Below, piece after piece: positions 244 to 8,192 of a DNA stretch of 11,292 nt. Under the pieces are notes generated by a model, which saw only the letters and a program-made list of their open reading frames with translations, had not been told where the DNA came from and made no database searches. Every line of letters begins with the position of its first letter. The stretch's first letter is position 1. This DNA is from Gemmatimonadaceae bacterium (GTDB taxonomy: Bacteria; Gemmatimonadota; Gemmatimonadetes; Gemmatimonadales; Gemmatimonadaceae): contig JADGGM010000034.1 of assembly GCA_019689955.1 (NCBI GenBank), forward strand, positions 1 to 11,292, in the 5' to 3' direction. A program made the position numbers and the translations under genes.

Positions 244-1716
244 CTACGCGTCGTTGTTCATGCAGCCTTGGCCGGCGACGTTCGGGTTGTTCTGCTCGGC
301 CTGCGGCACCGGGAACGCCACCTGCGTGCCGTACGGGCTCCCGCTCCGCCAGTCACCGGTGGGGAACACGCTCTCCGGTTGGCGGCCGTACTGCCGGATC
401 AGCCGCCGCAGGTCGCCGACCCGGTGCCCGCGCCCGAAGAGCCAGAACGCGCGCTCGCGGAAGAGGAGGTCGACACGCGCGGCCGCGGTGCCCGGGTCGC
501 TGAGCGGCTTCAACCCCGCGACGCCGCCCGAGCCGGCGTGCCACAACGTGTCGGTCACCGCCGGGTTGGTGTCGCTCGGCTGCGTGTCGAACATCCCGTC
601 GGTGCGCAGCGCGTTGAGCGTGGCGAGCCAGTCGCCCGCGACGGCGCCGTTGAGCTGCGCCTCCGCTTCGATGAGCCGCGCCTCGATCCCATCGGAGATC
701 GCGACCGGCGCATCGCGCGTGGTCCAGATCATCTGCACGTACAGCGGCGTCGTCCCGTCGTCGCGCGTGCTGCGCGGGACGCCGATCGCCTTGCAGGCCG
801 CGTCGCTCCCCAGGCACACCGGCACCCGCGGATCCTTCGCCGTCGCGAAGTCGAGCCCGGTCCCCCCCTCCCGGTCGCCCACGCTGTAGCGCCGCGCGAT
901 CGTGTTGTACGTCCACATCGCGTTGTCGTTCGTGGTCTGCGAGTGGAGGTTGAGGTACTGGAAGGCCGTGGGCACACCGGCCACCGCCGCCGCGGCGTCC
1001 GCGGGGCGGTTGAGGTTCAGCAGGATGCGGCCGCGCGTCACCTGCAGCGCGTTCCGCACCTTCACGTCCGCCGGGGTCGACCCGGTGATGAGCGCCAGCC
1101 CGCTGTCGGCGTGCGCGAGCGCCATCTCGAACGCGGCGGTCGTCGTCGTCGGGCTCCCGTACTGCTCGGTGCCATTGACGACCGTGCTGAAGACGAGGCC
1201 ATTGCAGTAATGCTCGCCGACGAGGTTCTCGACGTACGCTTCGATGAAGTACATCTCCGCGACGTCGGCCACCGCGCCGGTCGGCTTGTACTGCTCCAGG
1301 AGCTGCACCGCCTGCGTGGCCGAGAGGCGCGCGCGGTGGAGCATGCGGTTCACGTCGGTCAGAAAGCTGTTCTGGGGCGTGATGACGCGGCCGTCCACCT
1401 GCCAGCGATCGATGAAGGAGTCGCCGTTGCTCCACTCGTCGGCGAACAGCCCGCTGAGCAGGAAGAGCCCCTCCGAGCTGCTGCTGCCGCCGCTCGTCGC
1501 GGCGTTCAGGCGCGCGATCGCGCCGAGTCGGACCGCGTCCGCGCCCGCGGCCGACTGCACGTCGCCCGGGCTGATGACGTTCGGGGTCTCCACGTCGAGC
1601 AGGTTCGATACGTTGCACGCCGTGACCGCGAGCACGCCGGCGGCGGCGAGCGCCATCGTCGCCGCGAGCCGCCCCGAGCGCGGCCCGCGGGAGCGTGAAG
1701 TCAGATATGAGGTCAT
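244..1716 (-). CDS. SusD/RagB-type nutrient-binding outer-membrane lipoprotein
   Basis: This 490-aa protein is the surface-exposed partner of a SusC-type TonB-dependent transporter; it caps the barrel and delivers ligand. The lipoprotein signal ends in a lipobox, LAVTAC, with the acylated Cys at residue 34. The mature N-terminus NVSNLLDVETPNVISPGDV is typical of RagB/SusD proteins. Further family traits are the helical segment RLIEAEAQLN in the middle-to-late part, a C-terminal RERAFWLFGRGHRVGDLRRL block from about residue 420, and FPVPQAEQNNPN near 469-480. Length is normal. A close pair VCLGSDAAC may form a surface disulfide. The start at 1716 is preferred because AGGA lies about 11 bases upstream; an in-frame ATG at 1728, one base after the susC stop, would add four residues. 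The overlap-like spacing implies translational coupling with susC. The ligand cannot be read from sequence; starch is not implied by the name. Confidence 0.93.
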   Translation of the reverse strand: MTSYLTSRSRGPRSGRLAATMALAAAGVLAVTACNVSNLLDVETPNVISPGDVQSAAGADAVRLGAIARLNAATSGGSSSSEGLFLLSGLFADEWSNGDSFIDRWQVDGRVITPQNSFLTDVNRMLHRARLSATQAVQLLEQYKPTGAVADVAEMYFIEAYVENLVGEHYCNGLVFSTVVNGTEQYGSPTTTTAAFEMALAHADSGLALITGSTPADVKVRNALQVTRGRILLNLNRPADAAAAVAGVPTAFQYLNLHSQTTNDNAMWTYNTIARRYSVGDREGGTGLDFATAKDPRVPVCLGSDAACKAIGVPRSTRDDGTTPLYVQMIWTTRDAPVAISDGIEARLIEAEAQLNGAVAGDWLATLNALRTDGMFDTQPSDTNPAVTDTLWHAGSGGVAGLKPLSDPGTAAARVDLLFRERAFWLFGRGHRVGDLRRLIRQYGRQPESVFPTGDWRSGSPYGTQVAFPVPQAEQNNPNVAGQGCMNNDA

Positions 1717-1729
1717 GGGCGGTGTCATC

Positions 1730-4700
1730 CTAGAAGCCGAGGGTGAGGCGGAGGACGTAGTACGTCGGCGGGCCGAACGCCTGGAACTCCGAAGGGGCAT
1801 CCCCGGTCGTGTCGAACGCCTCGGGGTCCACCCCCGTGTACTTGGTCCAGAGGATGCCGAGGTTCCGGACCGCGAACGACGCGCTGAGCCGCTGGCCGTG
1901 GAAGCTGCGCGCCCAGCTGTCCGGCGCCGTGAAGCTGAGGTTCAGCTCGCGGAACCGAATGAAGTCGCCATCCTCGATGAACCCGGCGACCGTGCGGCTC
2001 GGATCCAGGCGCACCGCGACCGTCCGCGCCTGCTCGAACAGCGAGGCGTTCGGGTTGATGAGCCCCGAGCAGTTGTTGCGGCTCGCGCACCGGATGCGCT
2101 CGGTGTTGTTGTACGTCTTGAAGCCGCCCTTGTAATCGATCAACGCGCCCAAGCGCAGGTGGTGGTCCAGGAACTCGAACCCGTTGGTGAACGTCAGCTC
2201 CCGCCGCGGGAGCGAGTAGCCGAGGAACACCGCGGTGTCGGTGACGGTGATCTCGCTCAGCGCGGGGTCCGCGTTGTACTCGATGATCCCGTTGCCGTTC
2301 TTGTCCTGGTAGCTCACCAGCCCGCGCGCCCACCAGCCGTACAGCGGGTACCCCTCGCGGTGCTGCTGCGTGCTGCTCAGGACGATGTTGGGGACGCCGC
2401 CGAGGCTCACGAGCTTGTTGTTGTTCGTCGAGCCGGTGAACCCGATGTCCCAGCTGAACGCCTCGCGCCGCAGGAGCTGCGCGGTCAGCAGGAGCTCCCA
2501 CCCCGTGTTGCGCACCTCACCGAGGTTCTCGAAGCGGACCGTGGCCCCGGTCCCGATCGACGGCGGGAGCACCCGGCTGATGAGCGCGTCCTTCGACGTC
2601 TTGTTGTAGTGCGTGACCTCGAGGTTGACGCGGTTGTCCCACACCGTCGCATCGAACCCCAGCTCGAGCTCCGTGGAGCGTTCGGGCTTGAGGTTCTTGT
2701 TGCCCAGGGCGCTGAACACGAGCCCGGTCGCCTCCCCGGCCTCCCCGAGCGTGCGCGTGGCGGTGTAGTACGCCTCCGCATCCGTGGCGCCCGGCTGGAC
2801 GCCCGACGCGCCGAACGCGCCGCGCAGCCGGAGCTGGTCGAGCCACGCGGGACGCGGGAAGAAGTGCTCGTCCGAGGCCACCCACGACATGGCGAGCTTC
2901 GGGTAGAAGGTCGTCTTGAAGTTCGTCCCGAACGCGCTGTTCCGGTCCGACCGCACGGCGCCGGTGACGAACAGCCGGTCGTTGTAGGCCAGGTGCTCCT
3001 CGAGGAACCCGCCGAGCGTCCGGCTCTCGGTCCGCGACTCCCCGGACGTCTGCGTCGCCGCGGCTGAGATCGACGTGGAGCCCGGGGGCAGCCCGACGCC
3101 GCTCGCCAGGTTCTCGTCGAAGATCTCGTCCGTGTACTGCACGCCGAGCGTCGTGTTGGACGCGAGCGCGTCCGAGATGCGGCGCGTGGCCGTCACCGCG
3201 CCGTTGGCGGTGTAGGTGTAGAAGTTCGTCCGGTTGTCGATCTTGAACCCGATCCGGCTGTCGCCGCCGAGGTCCGGGCAGTTGGCGAAGCGGCAGAGCT
3301 GCGTATCGGTGCGGTTGATGTAATCGAGGCCGAAGGTGCCGCGGAACGACAGCCACTCGAACGGCTCGAACCGGCCGTTCGCCGAGGTGATCAGGCGCTT
3401 GATCCCCTGGTCGGTGTACGTCTGGTAGATGTCGCGCGGCGTGAACTGCCGCCAGCCGAAGAGCGTGTCGCCGCTGGCGGAGAGGTTGTACTTGAAGCCG
3501 GGCCCGCCGTAGGTGTTGCCGGCGACGCCGTTGACGCCGGAGTCATCGCTCGTCGGGAGCCGCGTGTTCGAGGAGGTGTACCCGGCGCTCAGGTCGAGGC
3601 TCGCCTTCGGGGCGAGCTGGATGTTGAACTGCGTGCGCCCGGTGACGCGCCCCATGTGGCTCGGGTGCGCCTCCTCGGGGCGCAGCCCGAGACCGTGCGC
3701 GGCGAGGTAGCGCTGGTCGAACTCGGGGACCTTGAGGACCCCCGTCTCGTCCTCCCACTCGCCGTGCAGGAAGTAACGCAGCGTCTCCGTCCCGCCGCCG
3801 ACCTGGACGGCGTGCGCCTGGCGGTAGCCGACGCCGTACGGCGTGGCCTCGGGATCAGCGTACAGGTTGTAGCTCGTGACGCTGTCCTGCGCGCACGTCC
3901 CCGCGGCGACCTGGTACAGGTAACACTGCGTGGTGTTGGACGGCGTCGAGCCGGTCGTCCACCCGCGGTACGCGGTGGGGTACGTGTTCTGATCGGCGTG
4001 GAAGCCTTGCTCGGTGAAGTACGTGTACTGGGGCCGGCCGGCGACGCCGTGCTTGGTGGTGATGACGATCACCCCGTTCGCCGCGTCGGTCCCGTAGAGC
4101 GTCGCGGCCGAGGGGCCACGCACCACTTCGATCGATTCGATCTCATCGGGATTGAGGTCGTTCACGCGCGCCGGGGTGGTCCCGCCGACGCTCACACTCG
4201 ACGACCCCGTCGTCCCCTCGACGCGTACGCCGTCGACGATGTAGATCGGGTTGTTGGAGAGCGAGAGGGAGCTCGTGCCGCGGATGCGCACGCGGGTGCC
4301 GGCGCCGACCTGGGTCGGCGTGAACACGGTGACGCCCGGGGTCCGCGCCACGAGCAGGTCCCCCATGTTCGCGACGCCGGTGTTCTCGGCCGCCTTCGCG
4401 GCGTCGATCTGCCCGATGGCGTTACCGACCTCCACGCGGCGCTGCTGCCCGGTCGCGGTGGTGACGACGGGGTTCAGCGTCGTCGCGACCGCCTGCAGTT
4501 GCAGGTCGAGCGTCGTGGTCTGGCCGGCGGTGACGGTGGCCGTGTCGCGCCGCTCCGAGTACCCCACGCGCAGGACACGAACGGTGTAGAGGCCGGGGCG
4601 CAGGCCAGGGATCGTGTACTGCCCGCGATCGTTGGTGAGCACGCCGATCGTGGTGCCCACGATGTTGATTTGTGCGGCTGCCACCGGCTGCCGCGTCCCG

Positions 4701-4822
4701 GCGTCGGTGACCTGCCCGGTGATGCGGCCCTGCTGCGGCGTTTGTGCGCCGAGGTGGGAGACGGCGAGCGCTCCGAGGAGCACGGCCCATCGAGCCGTGC
4801 GAGCGGCTGAGCATCGACTCAT
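1730..4822 (-). CDS. SusC/RagA-type TonB-dependent outer-membrane receptor
   Basis: This 1030-aa protein is an energy-dependent outer-membrane importer working with the SusD lipoprotein encoded just downstream. A signal peptide (cut near LGA-Q, residues 26-27) is followed by a carboxypeptidase-regulatory-like beta-sandwich at about 33-110 (GRITGQVTDAGTRQPV to TLDLQLQ). The plug domain spans about 128-258, with RIRGTSSLSLSNNPIYIVDG and the ATLYGTDAANGVIVITT block that marks this family. The 22-strand barrel fills the rest and ends in a terminal aromatic, LTLGF. There is no STN domain, so direct FecR-type signalling is not expected. Three close cysteine pairs (C300/C310, C510/C515, C912/C918) probably staple surface loops. 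The start at 4822 has AGAGGT 4 bases upstream and gives a clean signal peptide; a longer TTG-initiated frame from 4915 was discarded. A dyad operator and -10-like hexamer lie about 160-190 bases upstream. Substrate unknown. Confidence 0.95.
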   Translation of the reverse strand: MSRCSAARTARWAVLLGALAVSHLGAQTPQQGRITGQVTDAGTRQPVAAAQINIVGTTIGVLTNDRGQYTIPGLRPGLYTVRVLRVGYSERRDTATVTAGQTTTLDLQLQAVATTLNPVVTTATGQQRRVEVGNAIGQIDAAKAAENTGVANMGDLLVARTPGVTVFTPTQVGAGTRVRIRGTSSLSLSNNPIYIVDGVRVEGTTGSSSVSVGGTTPARVNDLNPDEIESIEVVRGPSAATLYGTDAANGVIVITTKHGVAGRPQYTYFTEQGFHADQNTYPTAYRGWTTGSTPSNTTQCYLYQVAAGTCAQDSVTSYNLYADPEATPYGVGYRQAHAVQVGGGTETLRYFLHGEWEDETGVLKVPEFDQRYLAAHGLGLRPEEAHPSHMGRVTGRTQFNIQLAPKASLDLSAGYTSSNTRLPTSDDSGVNGVAGNTYGGPGFKYNLSASGDTLFGWRQFTPRDIYQTYTDQGIKRLITSANGRFEPFEWLSFRGTFGLDYINRTDTQLCRFANCPDLGGDSRIGFKIDNRTNFYTYTANGAVTATRRISDALASNTTLGVQYTDEIFDENLASGVGLPPGSTSISAAATQTSGESRTESRTLGGFLEEHLAYNDRLFVTGAVRSDRNSAFGTNFKTTFYPKLAMSWVASDEHFFPRPAWLDQLRLRGAFGASGVQPGATDAEAYYTATRTLGEAGEATGLVFSALGNKNLKPERSTELELGFDATVWDNRVNLEVTHYNKTSKDALISRVLPPSIGTGATVRFENLGEVRNTGWELLLTAQLLRREAFSWDIGFTGSTNNNKLVSLGGVPNIVLSSTQQHREGYPLYGWWARGLVSYQDKNGNGIIEYNADPALSEITVTDTAVFLGYSLPRRELTFTNGFEFLDHHLRLGALIDYKGGFKTYNNTERIRCASRNNCSGLINPNASLFEQARTVAVRLDPSRTVAGFIEDGDFIRFRELNLSFTAPDSWARSFHGQRLSASFAVRNLGILWTKYTGVDPEAFDTTGDAPSEFQAFGPPTYYVLRLTLGF

Positions 4823-4983
4823 CGAGACCTCTGGGGCGAAAACGGTGAGAGAGCGCACGCGGCCTCGGCGTCCCTCCACGGGTCCGGTGACGAGCCGCGT
4901 GCATGGCGCTGCCAACGACGGGAGGGCGGTGTCTGACCTCCTGGAGAGCGGCGGTGAGATGGGGGTGCGGCTGGGTGGTTGGC

Positions 4984-5013
4984 CGGCGTTCCATTATGTG
5001 GAACGCCGTTCCA
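4984..5013 (-). promoter_or_regulatory. Dyad operator with embedded -10-like hexamer upstream of susC
   Basis: Arms CGGCGTTCCA (4984-4993) and TGGAACGCCG (4999-5008) are perfect reverse complements around a 5-base spacer. A third GTTCCA half-site at 5008-5013 forms a second dyad with the middle arm (TGGAAC-GCC-GTTCCA, 4999-5013). On the minus strand the spacer gives CATAAT (4998 to 4993), a good -10 hexamer pointing at susC; no convincing -35 is seen. GTTCCn/nGGAAC arms with a short AT-rich spacer resemble operators of several IclR-family regulators, but the regulator is not in the window. A closely related site precedes the acylase gene. The leader to the susC start would be about 160 bases. 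Confidence 0.65.
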
Positions 5014-5050
5014 GTAAAAGGTGAGAGCGGCTAGACGATACGGTCCCGTC

Positions 5051-5080
5051 GGCCAGGGGGCAAGAGAGCGCCCCCCGGCC
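5051..5080 (-). terminator. Stem-loop after the acylase gene, probable terminator
   Basis: Read on the minus strand, GGCCGGGGGGC and GCCCCCTGGCC pair over 11 positions, with one G-U pair, around an 8-base loop. The stem begins 10 bases past the acylase stop codon. It lacks a U-rich tract, so it may be a weak or factor-assisted terminator or a 3'-end stabiliser. It stands between the acylase gene and the susC promoter region. Confidence 0.45.
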
Positions 5081-5089
5081 CCCGGCGCC

Positions 5090-7276
5090 CTAGGGCATTT
5101 CGCCCGGACGGTACCGCCGGATCGTCTGCGCGGCGATGTCCCGCTCGGACCATGCGATCGGTTTGACCTCCCCGCGCGCGAACATCGCCGCCTGGTCGCT
5201 GTGGAAGGGGGAATCGGGGCGCGCGCTCTCGCCGTACGCGAGCACCGAGTAGCCGCGCGGCTCGTCCCCGAGCTCCACGGCGAGGATCCACCCATCCCCC
5301 CCCACGGCCTCGCGCTTCCCGTCGGGATCGTCCTTGTACCACAGCACGCGGAAGCACCCGAGATCGCCGTGGCACCCGCCGACCGGCACGTCCACGGTGC
5401 CGATCCGCACGCGGTGCACGTCACCCCACGCGACGTCGACGCGCCCGTAGCGCCGCACGGTCTCCTGCACCGCCCATGCGAACGCCTCCACCGCGCGCGC
5501 CGGGAACCGGATCCCGCGCGGCGTGGTGGTGGGCGCCGACGGGCTCCAGGGCTCGGCGTACATGGTGTCGGCGCGCGCCCCGGCGATGTAGCGGCGCCAC
5601 CAGAGCTCGAACAGGACGCCGCCGCGGCTCTCCGGCGCGGTGGTGCGATCCCAGCGCGCCAGGAGGTCGGCCGCCGCCGCCACTGCGGAATCGGGGTGCG
5701 CGGCACGCACCGCGGCCACGAGATCGTCGCGCACCCGGTCGGCGAGGAGCATGCGATACGAGTGCTTGAGCGCGAGCACGTCCTCGAGGCTCAGCTTCGC
5801 CCGCGTGTCGACGAGCTGCAGCGCGAGCTGCGTGCGGAGCCCCAGGCGCGGCGCGGGGAAGTACGGCGGAAAGCGTGCGGGGTCGAGCAGCTGGTGGAGG
5901 TTCGTGTAGTACGGCGGGTCGTTCGAGTTCTGCACGTACCCGCCCTTGGGGTTGAGGAGCTGCGGGAGAGAATCGAAGGGGATGTAGTCCGTCCACACGT
6001 CCGCGGTCCCGTGCGCCTCGACCGCCACCGTGTCGCCACCGCTCGGGTGCGGGAGCGCGGGGACGTCGCCGTTCCACACGTAGAAGATGTTCCCGGCACG
6101 GTCCGCGTACGTGAAGTTGGATGTCACGCGCGCGCGCATGCGCATGGCCGCTTTCCACTCGGCCAGCGAGTGCGCGCGCATCATGCGCAGGAACTGCTCG
6201 CCCGCGCGGAAGTCGCGGTCCCCGGCGGCCCGGAGGACGTAGATCTTCCCGCCCCCGCGGTAGATCACGGGGCCGAGCGGGGTCCCCAACACCTCGCGCG
6301 TCTCGCGCGCGAGCCCCGCCCCATTCTTGAGCTCCACCGACACCAGCCGCCGCTCGAGCGGGAGCGAGGCGCCATCGAACAGGTAGTGATCGACGTGCGC
6401 CGAGTCGACATCGAGGGCGTAGATCTGCCCGAGGAGCGGCGCGTTGTTCGTCGTCGCCCACGCCAGGTCGCGATTGAACCCGCCGACCACGCCGAACGGC
6501 CCGCCGATGCGGAAGTCCCCGTAGAAATCGAGGACGCCGGGGACGCGCAGATGGGCCTCGTAGTAGCCGGCGTTCCACTGCAGATGCGGGTTGCGGAGCA
6601 GAATGGCGTGCCCGGACTTCGTGCGGCTCGGCGCGAACGCCCACGCGTTCGATCCCTCATCCGGCGGGTCCACCCCTTCGCCCGGCGCGTTGCCCTCCGC
6701 CCCCTCCCTTGCGGCGGCCACGCGGGAGGTGCGGGCCGCGCCGGGGTCGATCCGCGCGAGGAACTTCGCGGCGCGCTCGGCCCCGACGATCTCCACGTCG
6801 TGCGCGAGCACGTCGTAGCCGGTGAAGTGGGGCGCGAACCCCGGCGGGAACTCCGCGGGGTGGAGCGCGATGTAGCGGTTCACCCCCGCCGCGAACCCCT
6901 CGTACACGTCGCGCGTCGCGCGATCGAGGCGCGGGTACGTCTCCACCGCACGCGCGTACGCAAGCCGCGCGGCGAAGTCGTGCTCCATGCTGTCTCGCCC
7001 GAACCACCGCCCCATCTCCCCACGCGCGCGGAGGAGGTCGAGCGCGACGCGCGCCCCGTAGTCCTCACACTGGACGTACGCGAGCGCGTATTCCGCCGCG
7101 GCGAGGTTGTCGGCGAGGATGTGCGGGACGCCGTGCGCGGTGCGGCGCACCTCCACGTGCGCGGCGAGCGCGGGCACGCCGTCGTCCGCGGCCTGTGCGT
7201 GCGCGCCCGTCACCGGGCCCGCCGCCGCGAGGAGCGCGAGCGCCACGGCGCGCGCGCGGGCGAGCGTCTCGATCAT
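5090..7276 (-). CDS. Secreted penicillin/acyl-homoserine-lactone acylase family Ntn-hydrolase
   Basis: This 728-aa precursor is predicted to hydrolyse an amide bond that links an acyl group to an amine. Family members mature by self-cleavage into alpha and beta chains held together in the periplasm. A signal peptide (MIETLARARAVALALL..., cut after AHA-Q28) leads to the alpha region (about 29-208). The beta chain would start at Ser209 in DEGSNAWAFAPSRTKSGHA, the conserved nucleophile context. The oxyanion-hole Asn is probably N452 in VQNSNDPP, and LAWATTNNAPLLGQIYAL (about 271-288) is the usual core strand. The C-terminal SPFHSDQAAMF block is also conserved. Length is normal and nothing is missing. 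The start at 7276 has AGAGGGA about 5 bases upstream. A GTTCCA dyad lies 67-88 bases upstream, matching the one before susC. Whether the natural substrate is a beta-lactam, an acyl-homoserine lactone or another N-acyl compound cannot be told. Confidence 0.93.
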   Translation of the reverse strand: MIETLARARAVALALLAAAGPVTGAHAQAADDGVPALAAHVEVRRTAHGVPHILADNLAAAEYALAYVQCEDYGARVALDLLRARGEMGRWFGRDSMEHDFAARLAYARAVETYPRLDRATRDVYEGFAAGVNRYIALHPAEFPPGFAPHFTGYDVLAHDVEIVGAERAAKFLARIDPGAARTSRVAAAREGAEGNAPGEGVDPPDEGSNAWAFAPSRTKSGHAILLRNPHLQWNAGYYEAHLRVPGVLDFYGDFRIGGPFGVVGGFNRDLAWATTNNAPLLGQIYALDVDSAHVDHYLFDGASLPLERRLVSVELKNGAGLARETREVLGTPLGPVIYRGGGKIYVLRAAGDRDFRAGEQFLRMMRAHSLAEWKAAMRMRARVTSNFTYADRAGNIFYVWNGDVPALPHPSGGDTVAVEAHGTADVWTDYIPFDSLPQLLNPKGGYVQNSNDPPYYTNLHQLLDPARFPPYFPAPRLGLRTQLALQLVDTRAKLSLEDVLALKHSYRMLLADRVRDDLVAAVRAAHPDSAVAAAADLLARWDRTTAPESRGGVLFELWWRRYIAGARADTMYAEPWSPSAPTTTPRGIRFPARAVEAFAWAVQETVRRYGRVDVAWGDVHRVRIGTVDVPVGGCHGDLGCFRVLWYKDDPDGKREAVGGDGWILAVELGDEPRGYSVLAYGESARPDSPFHSDQAAMFARGEVKPIAWSERDIAAQTIRRYRPGEMP

Positions 7277-7342
7277 CGGATCCCTCTGCCACGCCGGCCC
7301 CGCGCCCCGCCACCGATTCGCGGCGGGCACCGCACCGGGCGC

Positions 7343-7364
7343 GGCGTTCCATATTGTGGTACCG
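7343..7364 (-). promoter_or_regulatory. Dyad operator with embedded -10-like hexamer upstream of the acylase gene
   Basis: GGCGTTCCA (7343-7351), a 5-base spacer TATTG, and TGGTAC (7357-7362) form an imperfect dyad; the inner six-base arms match at five positions. Aligned with the susC-upstream site, 17 of the first 20 bases are identical. On the minus strand the spacer region reads CAATAT (7356 to 7351), a -10-like hexamer in exactly the register of CATAAT in the susC site. No good -35 hexamer is visible. It lies 67-88 bases before the acylase start, so it is placed to control that gene; it could also influence the divergent gene at 7590. Confidence 0.55.
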
Positions 7365-7589
7365 AGTTGCAGCTACTGATGAGCGCGACAGACGATACGC
7401 CCCGGGGCGAGCGCGGGCAAGGGCGACGATGGCGACGGGGGCTGCCGATCCTGCGCGGCCTGCGGCCGTGATGCAGCCGGGGCGCCGCGCCGACGACGAC
7501 TAACGCGCCGTGACGCTCACCGGTCTACATCGATGAGAAGGCCATCGCCCACCGGCAGCAGCTCGGGTTCACCTCCACGGGACATCACC
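7365..7589. other. Intergenic region upstream of the Spy-like gene
   Basis: This stretch, with 7277-7342, separates the divergent acylase and Spy-like genes. Its AT-richest part (about 7365-7395) is next to the operator, and TTGCAG at 7367 could be a weak plus-strand -35, but no convincing partner hexamer was found. A 30-codon frame from ATG 7379 to a stop at 7471 is Arg/Gly-rich, lacks a ribosome binding site and is not called. Nothing else recognisable was seen. Confidence 0.4.
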
Positions 7590-8192
7590 ATGAAGCGACT
7601 CACATGCGGTCTCATCCTCCTCTGCGGCATCGGTGCGGCACCGACCATCGTGCGCGCGCAGGCGCCGGGAGGCCCGCCCCCGGCGGCCGGACGCATCACC
7701 GCGACGCCCTTCCCCACGTGGGACCTCGCCGGGTTCCTGCTCTCCCACACCGCGGAGCTGCAGCTCACCGACCAGCAGGTCGTCCGACTCGCCGCGGTCG
7801 CGCGCCGCGCCGGCGCGGAGCGGCAGGCGCTCCGCGCCCGCCTGGACTCGCTCGGCCCGATGACCATGCGGCACCGCCCGCAGCCGGGCGACACCACGCG
7901 CCGCCTCGAGCGCAACGGCCCGCCGCCCGCGCTGATCGAAGCGATGAAAGCCGCGCGCGATCGACACCACGCGGATGTGCGGGACGCGCTCAGTGTCCTC
8001 ACGCCGGACCAACTGGCCACGGCGTGGATGATGGCGACCAGTAACGCGATGCACCGGGGCGCGAGGCCCGGCTGGGGAGCGGCGCACGGACGCGGGGTCG
8101 GCGTGCAACGGATGCGGACTCGGAGACCGGGGCCGGACCACGGCAGGCAGATGCCCTCTCCGCCGCCAAGTGGCGAGGATCTGCCCGAGTGA
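7590..8192 (+). CDS. Spy/CpxP-like LTXXQ-motif periplasmic protein
   Basis: This is a 200-aa exported protein. The signal peptide MKRLTCGLILLCGIGAA... is probably cut after VRA, before Q24. Two LTXXQ motifs, LTDQQ at 59-63 and LTPDQ at 137-141, each followed by an amphipathic helix, mark the Spy/CpxP group of small helical periplasmic proteins. Known members are chaperones or envelope-stress and metal sensors that dimerise as a cradle. The last 50 residues are rich in Gly, Arg, Pro and His and look disordered. Scattered histidines leave metal binding open but show no defined site. The start at 7590 is chosen because it opens the signal peptide; the ribosome binding site is weak (CGGGA). A longer frame from 7533 would put a polar extension before the signal. 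It is transcribed as a single gene, with its own hairpin terminator 12 bases downstream of the stop. Confidence 0.8.
   Translation: MKRLTCGLILLCGIGAAPTIVRAQAPGGPPPAAGRITATPFPTWDLAGFLLSHTAELQLTDQQVVRLAAVARRAGAERQALRARLDSLGPMTMRHRPQPGDTTRRLERNGPPPALIEAMKAARDRHHADVRDALSVLTPDQLATAWMMATSNAMHRGARPGWGAAHGRGVGVQRMRTRRPGPDHGRQMPSPPPSGEDLPE

Follow-up and report, generated by a model that had tools for sequence, protein, structure and literature searches.

Two related dyads of a Gemmatimonadaceae genome, one upstream of a susC gene and the other upstream of the gene of a secreted acylase, are very probably operators of a single autoregulated repressor of the IclR family, most likely the product of an iclR gene found on contig C16 of the same assembly, that would control a regulon for SusCD- and acylase-dependent uptake. 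The window, i.e. the whole stretch of DNA that was analysed (11,292 nucleotides), is the entire contig C512 of an assembly (G000) of 751 contigs and 3.76 Mb; this genome is 88.7% complete, and the window and C16 are united in it by binning alone.

The window and its two dyads

All three genes are on the minus strand, the acylase gene ahead of susC and a susD-like gene behind it (Table 1). The susC product is a SusC/RagA-type TonB-linked outer membrane protein (TIGR04056, 469.5 bits vs a cut-off of 368.25). The susD-like protein (244–1800) has no Pfam or NCBIfam match, and none to PF07980 up to E 1; it shares 65% identity with a protein of the relative G034 that scores barely above the PF07980 cut-off (25.4 vs 23.1 bits). 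The acylase belongs to the penicillin amidase family (PF01804, 405.7 bits vs a cut-off of 21.3) and its N-terminus is signal-peptide-like by eye. Its best solved matches are cephalosporin/glutaryl-7-ACA acylases (PDB 1keh and 3s8r, E 8.3e-97), and in the window it adjoins susC-susD; its score as a PvdQ acyl-homoserine lactone acylase (NF051460, 229 bits) is under the cut-off of 950. Across the same intergenic region, a plus-strand gene (7533–8192) that weakly matches LTXXQ (PF07813) is oriented away from the acylase gene, and the putative acylase operator might act on this gene as well.

Table 1. Genes and putative regulatory features of the window
Feature	Positions	Strand	Remarks
susD-like gene, downstream of susC	244..1716	minus	start placed by eye
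susC	1730..4822 (ORF 1730–4915)	minus	likely ATG 4822, start placed by eye
Putative operator core before susC, GTTCCACATAATGGAAC	4988..5004	minus	0 mismatches to published GTTYCRYW3RYGRAAC
Third box of susC operator, TGGAAC	5008..5013	minus	3 bp from core, 0 mismatches
Putative susC core promoter, TTGCCC-N17-TATCGT	5035..5063	minus	predicted from alignment and genome count
Ntn-hydrolase acylase gene	5090..7276 (ORF 5090–7330)	minus	likely ATG 7276, start placed by eye
Putative operator core before acylase gene, GTACCACAATATGGAAC	7346..7362	minus	1 mismatch to published GTTYCRYW3RYGRAAC
Third box of acylase operator, TGCAAC	7366..7371	minus	3 bp from core, 1 mismatch to TGGAAC
Putative acylase core promoter, TTGCCC-N17-TATCGT	7392..7420	minus	predicted from alignment and genome count

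A preliminary description of this DNA claimed that sites at 4984–5007 and 7343–7364 share 17 of their first 20 bases, are intergenic upstream of two same-strand genes and are both inverted repeats. The identity of 17 out of 20 bases is present between GGCGTTCCATTATGTGGAAC (4985–5004) and GGCGTTCCATATTGTGGTAC (7343–7362), the first coordinate having been given one base early for the 20-mer, and both dyads are intergenic, one before susC and the other before the acylase gene. The susC dyad is a perfect inverted repeat with arms of 10 bp (4984–4993 and 4999–5008, spacer of 5 nt), whereas the acylase dyad is weaker and imperfect (6-bp arms with one mismatch); because of this arm mismatch, it is omitted by an inverted-repeat scan requiring a perfect seed of at least 6 bp. 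With 0–2 mismatches, GGCGTTCCATNNTGTGGNAC occurs in the 3.76 Mb assembly nowhere beyond the two window places; with 3 mismatches, the matches listed include 7 more, one of them being the susC site on the opposite strand.

The likeness of the two upstream regions is larger than was described. They align on the minus strand over about 85 bp with gaps, with a local score of 47 while the best of 2000 first-order Markov pairs reaches 35, which bears out the earlier view that chance is an unlikely cause. Both regions contain CTTGCCC, CGTATCGTCT, an extra half-site and the dyad, and the likeness thus includes the putative promoters, whose TTGCCC-N17-TATCGT spacing is as for sigma-70 and which stand 29–30 nt ahead of the dyads. 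At genome scale, TTGC-N19-TATCGT is found at 7 places (reversed control, 0), 3 of which precede the dyads of the window and of iclR; at the 4 others, a dyad was not seen by eye in the 110 bp shown. These promoters stay candidates, since a stricter sigma-70 consensus scan of 4800–7700 returned none. A reading of GGAAC as the -35 box of an ECF sigma factor was weighed by eye and dropped.

The iclR gene and further sites in the genome

A search of the assembly for the IclR_C domain detected a single gene (G000:C16:3163-3933), the product of which belongs to the IclR family (PF09339, 41.1 bits with a cut-off of 22; PF01614, 147.5 bits with a cut-off of 24). The preliminary description had recommended a genome scan for other copies, especially before an IclR gene, and a related dyad, GTTCCGGAATCTGGAAC, does lie there: it is situated 33 nt before the ATG of iclR (centre at 42 nt), in the 121-bp gap that separates this gene from a divergent D-amino-acid transaminase gene (TIGR01121, above cut-off), and abuts, directly behind, the sequence TTGCGG-N17-TATCGT. 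The pattern GTWCCANANNNNGGAAC, fitted to the susC, acylase and iclR sites, is found exactly at these three places only in the genome.

A consensus has been published for a subgroup (group 1) of IclR sites, GTTYCRYW3RYGRAAC (Suvorova and Gelfand 2021, PMC8222616). With at most one mismatch, it is found at 3 places in 3.76 Mb (reversed control, 0), which are the susC site (0 mismatches), a site on contig C622 (0) and the acylase site (1); the iclR dyad has 2 mismatches. One regulator for both window genes, as predicted earlier, is therefore supported at the level of sequence by the consensus places together with the dyad before the only IclR gene detected. The looser pattern GTWSCA-N5-TGSWAC is exact at 3 places, namely the two of the window and one before another susC-susD pair (C514). 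Allowing one mismatch gives 44 places vs 148 for the reversed pattern; among the 20 that were classed, 4 are intergenic and 16 lie within called ORFs. Regarding the random occurrence in coding DNA that had been named as a possible refutation, exact copies are thus not scattered, but most of the classed near-copies do fall in ORFs. The iclR site is itself one of these 16; by homology, it lies between iclR and the transaminase gene (start L036:2339).

The C622 site, GTTCCACTTTACGGAAC, precedes an amidohydrolase gene (PF07969 above cut-off; best NCBIfam match below cut-off) whose product is 65–68% identical to the one adjoining iclR in the relatives G034 and G087. This site, located behind a gamma-glutamyltransferase gene, folds as a hairpin (-26.3 kcal/mol) before a U run, and its third box (2 mismatches) falls inside the hairpin stem; a terminator scan reported none at this hairpin. 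The idea that the C622 dyad is only a terminator stem was withdrawn in view of its full consensus fit and of the amidohydrolase homology to G034/G087: it is probably an operator, with a terminator role also possible. The C514 dyad is exact to GTWSCA-N5-TGSWAC, yet has 3 mismatches to the published consensus and lacks the third box, and would stand ahead of promoter-like sequence (by eye); it is only a possible operator of the same kind. On this contig (L149), the operator-like dyad (26–42) precedes susC-susD, and a gene of the AceK type, i.e. isocitrate dehydrogenase kinase/phosphatase (5764–7842), lies about 1 kb behind the pair.

Conservation among relatives

In a set of 395 genomes from the phylum, itself taken out of a larger group, 16 (the window's own among them) encode IclR homologs at E 1e-55 or better. 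Those at least 55% identical to the C16 protein adjoin susC-susD in several genomes and the acylase gene in three, and among the 11 relatives with an IclR identity of 50% or more, the fetched locus of 9 encodes, within about 8 kb, a SusC homologous to that of the window (blastp; the comparison covered the relatives other than G082 and G214). In G034 and its near-copy G087, iclR is divergent from susC-susD-acylase, with an amidohydrolase gene on its other side, and the perfect palindrome AGAGTTGCAGATTCTGCAACTCT precedes susC. The G034 sites have 4 and 5 mismatches to the published consensus and, as in GTTGCAGATTCTGCAAC, GTTGCA arms vs the GTTCCA type of the window; GTTGCA-N5-TGCAAC is also exact at G034:C35:16089. 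In these two genomes (loci L131 for G087 and L067 for G034), GTTGCAAACTCTGTTGCCTAGCGCAAC before the amidohydrolase gene (L067 7454–7480) repeats GTTGCAAACTCT of the iclR upstream region. In G314, iclR is followed by the acylase gene (product 74% identical to that of the window) and by a susC truncated at the end of the contig; the space between the first two genes holds GTTCCATAATATGGAAC (0 mismatches), and a one-mismatch copy precedes iclR. In Gemmatimonadetes isolate RYN_362 (L115) and in G356, GTTCCATATTATGGAAC is found between iclR and susC.

The motif GTWCCA-N5-TGGWAC, taken from the window sites alone, was sought with at most one mismatch in 300 bp upstream of iclR: it is present for 6 of the 10 other IclR genes whose products are at least 55% identical and for 0 of 7 at 51% identity or less, an association across all 18 loci that was reached by 5 of 5400 shuffles. 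A broadened motif (fourth base C or G, 400 bp), partly learned from the loci counted, which include the near-copies G034 and G087, is found in 9/10 and 0/7, respectively; the miss is G082 (57%), where the best result within 3 mismatches is one site at 3. In L138 (G256:C6; IclR 51%), another palindrome, AGTTCTCATATTCTGAGAGT, is seen by eye at the operator's place upstream of iclR (around 10019). In a tree of 22 IclR proteins, the operator-bearing ones cluster, with 3 changes (2 of 500 shuffles were as low); the deep forks of this tree are weak and do not establish a single origin of the operator. The L071–L074 homologs are in the tree and outside the upstream counts, no region was retrieved for the G078:C28 homolog, and L131 and L067 are near-copies here as well.

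The recognition helix, placed by eye, reads RPKST, RPRST, RPKSS, RPRSS or LPKST in the IclR proteins with GTTCCA-type sites, LSKGT in G034/G087, which have GTTGCA sites, and RHKST in G082, which has no site; the joint change of helix and operator counts as one event.

Some IclR sites have a third box forming a second pair, TGRAAC-N3/4-GTTYCA (PMC8222616), and both window sites show this three-box pattern. When 16 sites were searched for a left-hand TGGAAC or a right-hand GTTCCA at spacings 0 to 29 with at most 2 mismatches, spacing 3 was found in 13 (11 of 14 without the two window sites) and each of the 29 other spacings in 0–3; this spacing had been spotted by eye, at the window sites among others, before counting and played no part in finding the sites. 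In the window, G314 and G034, the susC and acylase sites have their third box towards the promoter, and so does the G209_b site; most of the sites read along iclR have it at the opposite end. The IclR family, suggested earlier from the arms of the dyads, is thus favoured by the consensus fit, the dyad before iclR, the conservation with iclR orthologs and the three-box spacing.

Acylases at E 1e-100 or better are encoded by 14 of 60 genomes, the window's included; 11 relatives were fetched, G034 was read separately and G015 was not fetched further. In these 11 loci (20 kb each), the motif with at most one mismatch occurs just once, within a gene; an IclR match at E 1e-30 is limited to one of their genomes, G055 (42%). 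The expectation that the dyads are conserved upstream of orthologs is thus borne out where the regulator is present and fails in the 11 acylase loci without a close IclR. As SusC and the acylase are encoded near each other in several of these loci, the grouping of these genes does not depend on this regulator. A search for GWWCC-N7-GGWWC before acylase orthologs, blind to the GTTGCA arms of G034, gave no site. In L081 (G018:C2:528000-547999), amidohydrolase-like and acylase sequences share one open frame of 1231 aa (10194–13889, minus strand) beside susC-susD, possibly a natural fusion of the two enzymes.

Mode of action and known systems

The following model can be drawn. IclR proteins have been reported to bind as tetramers, with the dimers on one DNA face. 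Dimers or a tetramer of IclR would bind TGSAAC-N3-GTWCCA-N5-TGGAAC and there block RNA polymerase; relative to the putative transcription starts of both susC-susD and the acylase gene, this site would span about +15 to +41. The copy located over the putative start of the iclR promoter would let IclR repress its own gene. IclR would be released by an effector that stems from the imported substrate, and the importer and the acylase, together with the amidohydrolase through the distant site, would be switched on together. A repressor that stops or excludes the polymerase is suggested by the position of the sites, behind the putative -10 boxes in the window and abutting that of iclR. N-acylated or D-amino acids or peptides are suggested by the acylase, amidohydrolase, transaminase and other enzymes within reach, which include, in L115, a D-aminopeptidase-like hydrolase (below cut-off) and, in G356, an amidohydrolase (TIGR01891, above cut-off); the substrate would perhaps be N-acylated amino acids or peptides.

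The same IclR sites might instead serve activation, as for some three-box IclR proteins such as PcaU and PobR, which are activators. This is unlikely, since each window site follows a putative -10 box and the iclR site directly adjoins one, although these promoters are themselves predictions. In its favour, PcaU, PobR and HmgR are named as having an extra box, which is needed for PcaU binding (PMC8222616), and the PDB holds a chain under the name p-hydroxybenzoate hydroxylase transcriptional activator. It is much less probable that the dyads act as RNA hairpins in an untranslated leader, i.e. as an attenuator or an mRNA stability element. Both sites would lie within the putative leaders and the RNA of the susC site has a strong fold (z -4.35 vs 200 shuffles), but the fold of the acylase site is no better than that of shuffles (z +2.02), the window has no Rfam match, and such hairpins would leave the IclR consensus match and the link with iclR genes unexplained. 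Binding of GTTCC dyads by a regulator of another family is equally improbable: palindromes of this size suit many families and binding by IclR is a prediction, but the consensus, the three-box spacing, the place before iclR and the phyletic link all point to IclR. Least probable of all is a likeness due to chance or to descent from a duplicated promoter segment with no shared regulator today: the alignment does extend beyond the dyad, but no Markov pair reaches its score, conservation is confined to promoter-like and operator boxes, and other genera have the palindrome beside iclR within unlike flanks.

The regulator family and the operator type of the proposed IclR repressor are already known. 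The sites share with the group-1 and three-box operators of PMC8222616 the core, a third box (3 bp away, as in TGRAACAN1-2TGTTYCA), the 20-bp phasing and the presence of a site before the regulator's own gene. They differ by the susC site, which is farther upstream than most: most IclR sites are centred -20 to -80 from the start codon (PMC8222616), and with window starts placed by eye the centres are at about -78 (acylase), -42 (iclR) and about -174 (susC), the last outside this range. The main text of that paper mentions neither Gemmatimonadota nor TonB, and its Table 2 has no row for this phylum. In literature searches, no IclR regulon of Gemmatimonadota was found, nor any link of IclR to SusC or to penicillin acylase and TonB-dependent uptake. 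The nearest in kind is PheR of Sphingobium (PMC13273656), a member of the IclR family that likewise represses a catabolic operon and the deletion of which increases the expression of TonB-dependent receptor genes as well; in contrast, PheR concerns phenanthrene catabolism, has a GCAACG core element, and the receptors are not presented there as direct targets. The motif of Escherichia coli IclR quoted in the same paper, TGGAAATNATTTCCA, has a TGGAA-N5-TTCCA spacing that resembles the pair formed here by the third box and the core; in E. coli this pair alone is the motif, whereas the main palindrome of the window is an outward-facing 17-mer.

Taken more widely, we tentatively propose, at somewhat less than even confidence, an IclR regulon of Gemmatimonadota (SusCD importer, periplasmic Ntn acylase, amidohydrolase and perhaps D-amino-acid transaminase) that would scavenge N-acylated or D-amino acids, in which the joint change in G034/G087 of the half-site (GTTCCA to GTTGCA) and of the helix (PKST to SKGT) would be a natural specificity switch. 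SusCD uptake would here have a candidate regulator-operator pair, in a phylum for which the literature searched shows no IclR regulon. The range of substrates conceivable for the secreted acylase would also be narrowed by its link with an importer and with an amidohydrolase, and the data may offer a small case of an operator and a recognition helix changing together.
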